From: Bacteroidaceae bacterium
GTDB lineage: Bacteria > Bacteroidota > Bacteroidia > Bacteroidales > Bacteroidaceae
Direction: 5' to 3'
Length of the DNA stretch: 42,791 nt
Assembly: GCA_024688885.1 (NCBI GenBank)
Contig: JAILDV010000056.1
Coordinates: 1 to 42,791 of the forward strand
Under the pieces are notes generated by a model that worked only from the letters and a program-made list of their open reading frames with translations, did no database searches and was not told the origin of the DNA. The position numbers and the translations under genes were made by a program. Shown one piece after another: positions 28,823-42,685 of this stretch (positions are counted from its first letter, which is position 1; each line of letters starts with the position of its first letter).

Positions 28823-30157
28823 ATGTTTGAAAATTTGAGCGAGAGACTGGAACGGTCTTTCAAGATACTGAAGGGTGAAGGCAAAATCACCGAAATAAAT
28901 GTAGCGGAAACGCTGAAAGATGTGCGTAAGGCACTCTTGGAGGCAGACGTAAACTACAAGGTTGCCAAGACCTTTACCGATACGGTGAAGCAGAAAGCAT
29001 TGGGTCAGAATGTGCTGACTGCCGTGAAGCCTGGTCAGATGATGGTCAAGATTGTGCACGACGAGTTGGCTGAACTGATGGGTGGTCAAGCCACCGACCT
29101 GAACTTGACGGGACATCCTACAATCATATTGATGGCAGGTTTGAATGGTGCCGGTAAGACGACCATGTCGGGTAAGCTGGCGCTACGTCTGAAGACTCAA
29201 AATCACAAGAAGCCACTCTTGGCTGCCTGCGACACATTCCGTCCTGCAGCCATGGAGCAGTTGCGCGTGCTGGCTGAGCAGGTGGAAGTGCCTTGCTATC
29301 TGGAGGAAGGTGCCACCGACCCCATCGCTGTGGCAAAGAATGCCATTCAGGAGGCTAAGGCGAAGGGCTATGATGTAGTGATTGTCGATACTGCCGGTCG
29401 TCAATCCATTGATGAGGAACTGATGCAGCAGATTGAGCAGATTAAGGCTGCTGTCAATCCGAATGAGACCCTGCTCGTGGTGGATGCCATGACTGGTCAA
29501 GACGCTGTCAACACAGCCAAGATGTTCAACGAAAGATTGGAGATTGACGGTGTCATCCTCACCAAACTGGACGGTGACACCCGTGGTGGTGCTGCCCTCT
29601 CCATCCGGACAGTGGTGGACAAGCCCATCAAGTTTGTGGGTACGGGCGAAAAGATGGAGGCGCTCGATGTGTTCCATCCCGAACGTATGGCAGACCGCAT
29701 CCTCGGCATGGGCGACATCGTGTCGTTCGTGGAACGTGCCCAGCAGCAGTTCGACGAGGAGGAAGCAAAGCGTTTGGAGAAGAAGATTGCGAAGAACAAA
29801 TTCGACTATAACGATTTCCTTGGACAAATTGGTCAAATCAAGAAGATGGGTAACATCAAGGATTTGGCTTCGATGATTCCAGGTGTGGGTAAGGCACTGA
29901 AAGATGTGGACATCGACGACAATGCGTTCAAGTCTGTTGAAGCCATGATTGGTTCGATGACTCCTTATGAGAGAGAACACCCTGAATGCATCAACATGTC
30001 GCGCAAACAACGTATTGCAAAGGGTGCTGGTGTCTCCATTGACGAGGTGAACCGCATCACGAAGCAGTTCGAGCAGATGCGCAAGATGATGCGTCAGATG
30101 ACCAGCCCCAAGATGGCTCAAGCGATGGCGCAGATGCAACGAATGAGAAAATTCTAA
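28823..30157 (+). CDS. ffh: Signal recognition particle protein Ffh
   Basis: The 444-residue GTPase binds signal sequences and SRP RNA to target membrane proteins. The N domain is at about 1-85. The G domain has GLNGAGKTT (about 106-114), DTAGRQ and [10 protein letters not shown]. The M domain (about 300-444) ends in a Met-rich segment ([17 protein letters not shown]). It starts 3 bp after the DedA gene and precedes folD by 23 bp, so the three genes probably form one transcript. Confidence 0.97.
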
Positions 30158-38910: not shown

Positions 38911-39534
38911 ATCAAAGTATGTGGCATGCGCGATGCCGACAACATCCGTCAGGTGGATGACCTCGGCAATGTCGATTGGATGGGATTCATTTTCTATCCC
39001 CCCTCATCGCGCCATGTCAGCGAAGTGCCAGATTATCTGCCCCGACATTGCAAGCGGGTGGGCGTGTTCGTCAATGCCACACCAGAAGAAATACAGCAAC
39101 GACAAGAGGCATTCGGCTTCGACATCATCCAGCTGCACGGTCATGAGACACCCGACTTCTGCAAGGCACTTCCCCACCATCTGAAAGCAGGAACAAAACT
39201 CATCAAGATGGTGCAGATTGCCTCACAAAAGGACTTGGAGGACACATCGCAGTATGAAGGGTTGGTGGATTATTTCCTTTTCGAGACCAAATGCGAGGGT
39301 TATGGAGGCAGTGGCAAGCAGTTCGACTGGGAAATCCTGCGGCACTACAAGGGGAAGACGCCCTTCCTCATCACGGGCGGCATAGGTCCCGACGATGCCG
39401 AACGCATCAAAGCCCTCAACTCTCAACTCTCAACTGTCAACTTCATCGGCATTGACCTCAACTCACGATTTGAGACAGTTCCAGCCCTCAAGGACCCCAC
39501 TCTCCTCCACGACTTTCTTGAAATCGTCAAATAA
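38905..39534 (+). CDS. trpF: Phosphoribosylanthranilate isomerase with internal heptad array
   Basis: The 209-residue TIM-barrel enzyme performs the Amadori rearrangement before indole ring closure. KVCGMRDADN (about 3-12) contains the catalytic Cys. LHGHETPDF and TGGIGPDDAERI are family motifs, and GIDLNSRFE carries the catalytic Asp. Between AERI and GIDLNS the protein reads LNSQLSTVNF, encoded by four tandem heptads (39416-39443), about four residues longer than usual. The position is a surface turn ahead of the last strand, so activity is probably kept. The start codon itself lies in the same repeat family. Confidence 0.93.
   Translation: MIIKVCGMRDADNIRQVDDLGNVDWMGFIFYPPSSRHVSEVPDYLPRHCKRVGVFVNATPEEIQQRQEAFGFDIIQLHGHETPDFCKALPHHLKAGTKLIKMVQIASQKDLEDTSQYEGLVDYFLFETKCEGYGGSGKQFDWEILRHYKGKTPFLITGGIGPDDAERIKALNSQLSTVNFIGIDLNSRFETVPALKDPTLLHDFLEIVK
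39416..39443. repeat. Four tandem heptads inside trpF
   Basis: TCAACTC, TCAACTC, TCAACTG and TCAACTT follow each other exactly in register within the coding sequence. The total of 28 bp is not a multiple of three, but the reading frame is intact across it. Confidence 0.9.
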
Positions 39535-39583: not shown

Positions 39584-40432
39584 ATGGTGAACAGAATCAA
39601 TCAACTTTTCGCCACTAAGAGCGAGAAAATCCTCTCTATCTACTTCTGTGCCGGACATCCCACGCTGGAAGGCACCGCACAGACCATCAGGACGTTAGAG
39701 AAGAAAGGTGTGGACATGATTGAAGTGGGCATTCCCTTCTCCGACCCTATGGCAGACGGTCCCGTCATTCAGGATGCTGCCACCAAGGCACTGCGCAACG
39801 GAATGACACTGAAGAAACTCTTCTCGCAACTGGAAGAACTACACAGAAGCCCCCTCCTAACCTCCCCCAAAGGGGAGGAAAACCATCCGGACAGCAAATC
39901 ATCCCCCCTTGGGGGGACAGGAGGGGGGCTCCCATTGATTTTGATGGGCTATCTCAACCCCATCATGCAGTTCGGCTTTGACGCGTTCTGCCGGCGCTGT
40001 GTAGAGGTGGGCATTGACGGTGTCATCATTCCCGACCTTCCCTTCAAGGACTATCAGGAAGAATACAAGCCCGTTGCCGACAAGTACGACATCCGCATCA
40101 TCATGCTCATCACTCCCGAGACAAGTGACGAGCGCATCCGCTTCATTGACGACAACACCGACGGCTTCATCTACATGGTCAGCTCAGCAGCCATCACAGG
40201 TGCGCAGAAAGAGTTCGGCGATGCCAAGCAAGCCTACTTCTCACGCATCAACGCCATGAACCTCAAGCACCCCCGCATGATTGGTTTCGGCATCAGCAAC
40301 AAGCAAACCCTCGAAGCAGCCCAAGCCAATGCTGCAGGTGCCATCATCGGCTCCAAGTTCGTCAGCCTCATGGAAGAGACAGGTGATGCCGAAACAGCGA
40401 TGGATCAGCTGTTGGAAGCATTAAAGAAGTAA
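39584..40432 (+). CDS. trpA: Tryptophan synthase alpha subunit with in-frame palindromic insertion
   Basis: The 282-residue TIM-barrel enzyme splits indole glycerol phosphate and passes indole to TrpB. The acid Glu lies in VDMIEVGIPFSDPMADGP (about 43-60) together with the loop Asp. MGYLNPI, GVIIPDLPF and GFGISN near the C terminus complete the family pattern. The usual length is about 250-265 residues. The extra residues, about 89-115 (SPLLTSPKGEENHPD, then KSSPLGGTGGG), are encoded by a palindromic element at 39848-39930, between helix 2 and strand 3. The frame is intact and the gene ends a complete trp operon, so a working enzyme with a surface loop is likely. Confidence 0.93.
   Translation: MVNRINQLFATKSEKILSIYFCAGHPTLEGTAQTIRTLEKKGVDMIEVGIPFSDPMADGPVIQDAATKALRNGMTLKKLFSQLEELHRSPLLTSPKGEENHPDSKSSPLGGTGGGLPLILMGYLNPIMQFGFDAFCRRCVEVGIDGVIIPDLPFKDYQEEYKPVADKYDIRIIMLITPETSDERIRFIDDNTDGFIYMVSSAAITGAQKEFGDAKQAYFSRINAMNLKHPRMIGFGISNKQTLEAAQANAAGAIIGSKFVSLMEETGDAETAMDQLLEALKK
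39848..39930. repeat. GC-rich palindromic element inserted in trpA
   Basis: Outer arms AGCCCCCTCCT (39848-39858) and AGGAGGGGGGCT (39919-39930) pair with one bulged G. Each half contains its own hairpin: CCTCCCC/GGGGAGG (39861-39867, 39872-39878) and TCCCCCC/GGGGGGA (39902-39908, 39911-39917). The base composition differs sharply from the gene around it. Confidence 0.9.
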
Positions 40433-42385: not shown

Positions 42386-42618
42386 ATCAAAGGCAAGAGA
42401 AGGATGACGTAACTGTTCCTGTTATTCTCAAAAGTGCAGCAACAATTTTCAGAGTGCAGATTCTTGTGCTTCCCTAAAAAAAGTTGAATGGATTTTACCT
42501 TATCCCTGCCATTGGTTGAATGTCTTATTGCTTAACCCTGGCGGGACTTGAACAATGTGTATTGTGTCAGTATTTCAAAGAACGATTGGAGAGATTTGAG
42601 GGTTTAGAGTTTAGAGAT
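42382..42618 (+). pseudogene. Decayed reading frame downstream of the FecR/BspA-like gene
   Basis: One reading frame starts with an ATG overlapping the previous stop and runs 31 codons to TAA (42475), then continues past two in-frame stops with protein-like segments (KKLNGFYLIPAIG, then CLTLAGLEQCVLCQYFKERL) to about 42618. No family is recognised. It could be a decayed gene, or a non-coding repeat that happens to be open. It contains the 15-mer TTTCAAAGAACGATT (42573-42587), also found at 101-115. Confidence 0.3.
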
Positions 42619-42685
42619 TAGGGTTTAGAGATTAGGGTTTAGAGATTAGGGTTTAGAGTTTAGAGTTTAGGGTTCAGAGTTTCGG
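42602..42685. repeat. Twelve tandem heptads near the right edge
   Basis: GTTTAGA and GATTAGG units alternate in exact 7-bp register: twelve units, 84 bp, the last two degenerate. No gene overlaps it. Confidence 0.9.

Follow-up and report, generated by a model that had tools for sequence, protein, structure and literature searches.

An 83-bp palindromic element lies in frame inside trpA, the gene for the tryptophan synthase alpha chain, and is probably a copy of a (recently) mobile palindromic repeat family that enters genes and intergenic DNA alike and is tolerated here as a loop of the TrpA protein. The window, that is, the whole stretch of 42,791 nucleotides that was analysed, carries a trp operon at its end, with trpA within it. 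The features concerned are as follows, with positions counted in the window.

39584 to 40432, + strand: trpA, tryptophan synthase alpha chain, 282 aa, with the element in frame (TIGR00262, 216.4 bits against a cut-off of 102.35)
39848 to 39930, + strand: 83-bp palindromic element, two inverted REP-like halves, translated as TrpA residues 89-116
39848 to 39857, + strand: left outer arm AGCCCCCTCC, read directly
39861 to 39878, + strand: left hairpin CCTCCCC-CAAA-GGGGAGG, read directly, with the peptide T-S-P-K-G-E-E
39883 to 39894, + strand: core CCATCCGGACAG, with a family consensus of about CCRTCCGGAYGG
39902 to 39917, + strand: right hairpin TCCCCCC-TT-GGGGGGA, read directly, with the peptide S-P-L-G-G
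39920 to 39930, + strand: right outer arm GGAGGGGGGCT, read directly

Direct reading of the sequence confirmed the original prediction of a palindromic element in trpA that leaves the frame open and consists of outer arms and two hairpins, one per half. The outer arms AGCCCCCTCC and GGAGGGGGGCT pair with each other, leaving one C in surplus, and form terminal inverted repeats, which are a trait of MITEs. Folded as single-stranded DNA, the element gives a z of -2.35, and 4 of 200 shuffles fold equally well. CGTC is present in the core of some copies only, and no clear terminal GTAG or CGTC tag was seen. A match to CCATCCGGACAG at window positions 29601-29612 was rejected as a second copy, as it sits in an ordinary 444-aa ORF, which by its reading we take to be ffh.

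The host protein is represented once in its own genome. The search with TrpA gave one full-length match, and the other three matches were to the element alone. The element spans codons 89-116 (S89 to L116), while the net gain is only 24 codons with respect to the 257-aa orthologs; an addition of about 27 residues, as had been proposed, describes the length of the element but is slightly high for what the protein has gained. The loop region measures 165 nt here versus 93 nt in the congeners with a 257-aa TrpA, and it follows from this gain that part of the ancestral TrpA loop was replaced. An AlphaFold2 model (53 sequences; mean pLDDT 89.6), which agrees with solved TrpA chains, places the insert between helix 76-84 and strand 118-121, that is, in a loop between a helix and a strand, as anticipated. 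With residues 94-112 below a pLDDT of 50, the insert is modelled as a disordered loop. The helix-to-strand loop of such a barrel faces away from the active site. Outside the insert, dN/dS was 0.05-0.15 in all 15 pairs of the six element-bearing TrpAs, values that point to purifying selection on the element-bearing protein. The full-length TrpA with its insert is presumably made and active; it would keep its function in spite of a floppy loop about 28 residues long.

The element is by no means restricted to trpA. When it was searched by blastn, with 10-bp flanks, against its own 3.03-Mb genome, 67 matches were obtained, many of which represent the two strands of a single palindrome. With an HMM built from six copies, 42 clusters (43 with tighter merging) were resolved in the window and 25 fetched stretches, 23 of which were chosen around blastn matches. 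Eleven clusters are non-coding, four have one coding side, and 27 are intragenic, with coding-like flanks on both sides. The intragenic ones are spread over 23 coding-like ORFs, so that this is a repeat family with in-frame copies in many genes, several of which encode core enzymes. Random placements in the same stretches, judged by the same classifier, were intragenic in 374 of 600 cases (62%). The element is thus intragenic as often as random placements, and the family is not excluded from genes. Gene calls for the hosts come from ORFs and codon usage. Those over the NCBIfam cut-off include leuS (three copies), alaS, ileS, pyrG, murF-alr (two copies), RNase HII (rnhB) and aspartokinase-homoserine dehydrogenase; argC (a partial ORF) and an argE/dapE-type protein have NCBIfam matches under the cut-off, and Pfam adds a GH95 glycosidase. 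The tRNA synthetases and CTP synthase are essential. Single hairpin monomers and inverted dimers are both present in this genome, and the family may be described as two inverted REP-like hairpin units that would flank a CCRTCCGGAYGG core. On one 9.1-kb contig (G000:C15, L147), eight element clusters were seen, one ORF there being argC; several non-coding monomers on this contig have a common GGTGTTGG-type tail.

The relatives provide both full and empty sites. In trpA, 30 genus loci were compared, the own one included, these being the best 30 of the 35 genus genomes with a TrpA match. Five carry the element (L031, L032, L043, L044, L045), one has a remnant-like short insert (L035), four have heptamer-type inserts (L036-L039), five have a few extra residues, and 15 have no insert; a uniform loop of equal length is, therefore, not what the relatives share. 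In a wider sample of TrpA loci, the insert was found in L061 and L069 only, among 71 read of the 80 fetched, and one unparsed row shows no insert. The first TrpA reading left out 18 minus-strand loci; L031-L070 were read on both strands, with 39 of 40 parsed. Similarly, 30 loci each were compared for leuS and pyrG, out of 40 and 41 genomes with a match among 45. Three sites in leuS are full in some relatives and empty in others. In pyrG, two loci carry the element family, three a second palindrome sharing the core, one a third palindrome and one a heptamer-type insert, while 23 have none. The element itself matches in 24 of the 45 genus genomes (E 0.001), and in 31 of 251 sampled family genomes, belonging to 8 of 30 genera (E 1e-6, with at most three candidates per genome scored). 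From the full and empty sites we infer that the element is mobile, which lends support to the earlier idea of a mobile repeat that can be translated as a protein loop. By eye, bases of the target seem to be lost on insertion, with about 13 residues replaced at leuS site 3, for instance. Target-site duplication, a trait of MITEs, was not seen by eye at trpA, the three leuS sites or pyrG.

The genomes are fragmented drafts, and two of the carriers (L061 and L069) are metagenome-derived assemblies. It could, therefore, be argued that assembly or binning had put the repeats into genes. The insert is, however, also present in trpA of G002, G011, G014, G025 and G068 (G000 being the own genome of the window and the other G numbers those of relatives), which rules out an error of a single assembly. 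Sites are filled near-identically in separate genomes with the frame open and are empty in others, and we regard such an artefact as extremely improbable.

The loops that receive the element also hold other repeats. The heptamer-type inserts in the trpA loop of L036-L039 are TCAACTG-like and about 12 residues long. The pyrG loop of L228, L229, L231, L232 and L233 has at least three other repeat kinds, one of which shares a CCATCCGGACGG core, and the leuS site 3 loop of L201, L202 and L203 has palindromic inserts of further, other sequence.

Within genes, the copies are read in a preferred phase. The phase S-P-x-G is used by 16 of 19 intragenic own copies, where 9.2 are expected from random open frames (P 0.0007); these copies are 64-130 nt long, the phase was assigned by hand, and not all of them are independent. 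Three copies in the set measure 67-68 nt; in one of them a half has decayed, and the others are shorter or single units. At least two host-strand frames are open in 17 of the 19 copies. A hand count of strict-pattern hairpins gave 34 of 39 read in the same phase. This strong bias, together with a 39-nt difference inside the trpA element that retains the frame (G011, G014 and G025 being longer than G000, G002 and G068), could be taken to mean that the translated peptide is an adaptive loop with a regulatory or interaction role, recruited and kept for protein function. Yet the same loop in trpA, pyrG and leuS holds unrelated repeats or nothing elsewhere, the segment is disordered in the model, and the functions of the hosts are unrelated, all of which makes a selected peptide very unlikely. 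As copies of a mobile repeat, the inserts in genes would instead survive if the length of the gene changes by a net multiple of three, if the loop is tolerant and if the hydrophilic phase S-P-K/Q/L-G-E/G is read.

The divergence of shared elements was compared with that of their hosts. Among the matches listed from chosen genomes, 128 cross-species pairs have a common site; 77 of these have similar elements (<15% nucleotide difference), and in the other 51 the element is a different or an older one. A set of 58 pairs at 21 sites was selected for an element difference below 15% and a host fourfold difference of at least 25%. In this set, fourfold differences amount to 57 of 962 (6%) in the elements versus 4678 of 11345 (41%) in the rest of the hosts, a contrast that is inflated by the selection for element similarity, which affects the flank gradient less. 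The shared-site pairs have genomes in common and are not independent, and 3 of the 21 sites are within 25 residues of the ORF start, where they may precede the true start and hence be untranslated. In the flanks, fourfold divergence rises from 12% at codons 1-3 to 19% at codons 4-8 and 29% at codons 9-13, and is about 40% thereafter.

Several controls bear on this gradient. When one pair per site was taken, the flank at codons 4-13 gave 38 of 149, and only 1 of 200 random-position controls was as low (mean 0.39). In 43 control pairs with different elements at one site, the same three bins gave 37, 43 and 39%. Non-carrier pairs at five sites showed no dip at codons 4-13. They were low at codons 1-3 in two of the five sites, namely leuS site 3 (1 of 5) and pyrG (51 of 171). 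Non-carrier controls are few at trpA (7 loci) and at leuS site 3 (6 loci), where the automatic split put most empty loci among the carriers. At the level of sequence, then, divergence in many orthologous copies is far below that of the genes that host them, and identity in the flanks falls off over a short distance.

The low divergence of the elements and the gradient over about 40 bp of flank suggest that the element spread from species to species in very short tracts. The simplest account would be that the element and short flanks were exchanged between species later than the species split. Near-identical whole genes between species also occur, with fourfold differences of 2% in a U32 peptidase (G000 and G003) and 6% in GH95 (G000 and G025). 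Concerted evolution among the copies was not supported: in 14 of 15 cases, the ortholog is closer than the best detected paralog of the own genome, the exception being one of two near-identical leuS copies.

A different explanation is that the inserts are old and vertically inherited, their DNA being preserved by selection on the DNA or RNA itself, as a hairpin, by protein binding or through a nucleoid or mRNA role. The low divergence affects all positions of the shared elements, and in an alignment of 26 copies the arms, hairpins and core are strongly conserved, with a consensus fold of 17 pairs. Furthermore, the flanks look ordinary past about 40 bp and the median first mismatch comes after only 12-14 nt, versus 6.9 expected, which leaves room for nucleotide constraint on the element. 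However, a constraint of this kind sits poorly with the paralogs: of 15 own copies with an ortholog, 11 differ by more than 10% from their best own-genome paralog, whereas 14 have an ortholog that is 94-100% like them. The trpA element of G068 (L061) differs by 16-22% from the other trpA elements, presence is patchy, and the identity reaches into the flanks. No compensatory double changes were found in the element hairpins, covariation support does not go beyond sequence identity, and an Rfam search with the element gave three weak matches, far under the gathering score. Taken with these points, long-standing inheritance under constraint is unlikely.

As to how a mobile repeat would move in this manner, it is a tentative proposal, somewhat less likely than not, that its spread is lateral and homing-like: the element, with about 25 bp of flank on either side, would enter the corresponding loop of the corresponding gene in another species, in many cases one for a core enzyme, through homology-directed exchange that involves very short tracts and no transposase of its own. 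The homologous tracts exchanged would each comprise the element and very roughly 25 bp on either side, a figure that is a rough reading of the gradient. A possible route is the annealing of hairpin-protected single-stranded fragments. At its first insertions, the element would displace some bases of the target and likewise need no transposase. Short-patch double illegitimate recombination is a route considered for insertion; a search of open-licence PMC papers gave none that uses this phrase.

The two inverted hairpin monomers, and the single monomers elsewhere in the genome, are also what would be expected of an ordinary RAYT-type REP/BIME moved by an IS200/IS605-like HUH transposase, a possibility compatible with the main reading of a mobile repeat family. 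Y1_Tnp (PF01797) is well over the cut-off in G015, G065, G061 and G067, all of which bear the element, and in the own genome a 388-aa HUH-like protein with a DHLHGI motif (G000:C49:58129-59292, L166) has a weak Y1_Tnp match and no Pfam family at E 1e-5. Nevertheless, no clear RAYT-type transposase was found in the own genome or in eight other element-rich genomes, some of which are incomplete: Y1_Tnp is absent, under the cut-off or marginal in G000, G002, G003 (marginal, at 29.9 bits), G011, G013, G014, G025, G036 and G068, which have 8 to 30 element matches each. It is strong in G004, G024 and G019, none of which has an element match. The 388-aa protein was rejected as the mobiliser, since it has matches in 37 of the 45 genus genomes regardless of the element, and no element copies were found in the 8-kb stretch around it. 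On this evidence, movement by such a transposase is quite unlikely. A second weak Y1_Tnp match (L142, L167) was rejected as a transposase; by eye, this ORF is presumably cytidylate-kinase-like.

The closest known parallel is the Rickettsia palindromic element (RPE), and the likeness drawn to it by the original prediction holds as one of behaviour. RPEs are palindromic and occur between genes and in frame in unrelated metabolic genes (PMC10969869, PMC3733652). The first of these papers, a 2024 review, gives them as about 150 bp long, with 44 integrations in R. conorii and nearly half of RPEs in ORFs, and calls an RPE-like process in other prokaryotes conceivable (PMC10969869). The element described here shares both locations: 27 of its 42 clusters are intragenic, with in-frame copies in ORFs, and 11 are non-coding. 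In contrast, it belongs to another phylum, is about 83 bp long and is likened to RPEs by behaviour, not by sequence; here, moreover, several repeat families use one loop, and there is evidence for spread between species at orthologous sites.

REPs are hairpin monomers, often arranged as inverted dimers (BIMEs), and are known within genes of other bacteria, more than half of the intragenic ones being dimers or groups that encode 20 to 30 residues (PMC3733652). The same paper describes a CGTC superfamily, found in Bacteroidetes too, which apparently has no dedicated transposase (PMC3733652). The present element resembles REPs and BIMEs in its short hairpin monomers and inverted dimers. However, GTAG and CGTC REPs are mostly intergenic, whereas here 27 of 42 clusters are intragenic, about the random fraction (374 of 600). 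BrickBuilt of Porphyromonas gingivalis, a MITE, is reported to be strictly intergenic (PMC10969869). Like it, the element is short, inverted-repeat, mobile-like DNA in Bacteroidota; unlike it, the element also lies in genes, and no target duplication was seen.

Among the open-licence PMC matches listed, no earlier report of an in-frame palindromic repeat family in Bacteroidales was found. In the papers cited above, accounts of translated palindromic repeats concern chiefly Rickettsia, with intragenic REPs in some other bacteria. Here, one Bacteroidales genus has them in enzymes that include tRNA synthetases, CTP synthase and those of amino acid metabolism, and dozens of its genomes provide both full and empty sites; thus, the path from selfish DNA to protein loop, the kinds of loop that tolerate it and the manner of its spread become open to testing. 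If upheld in an unselected sample, a dip in divergence that extends no further than the element and about 40 bp of its flanks would point to the exchange of unusually short tracts. Such loops are also to be expected by annotation and structure pipelines.

Heptamer repeats of a different kind are present in the window as well. One of them lies in trpF:

39415 to 39442, + strand: different repeat, (CTCAACT)x4, in frame in trpF, adding about 4 codons

An insert like it was seen in 3 of 26 parsed TrpF rows (G000, G025 and G014), TrpF having been parsed in 26 of 40 loci, with two rows from one genome. A further heptamer array, of GTTTAGA in 11.6 copies, occupies window positions 42602-42682.
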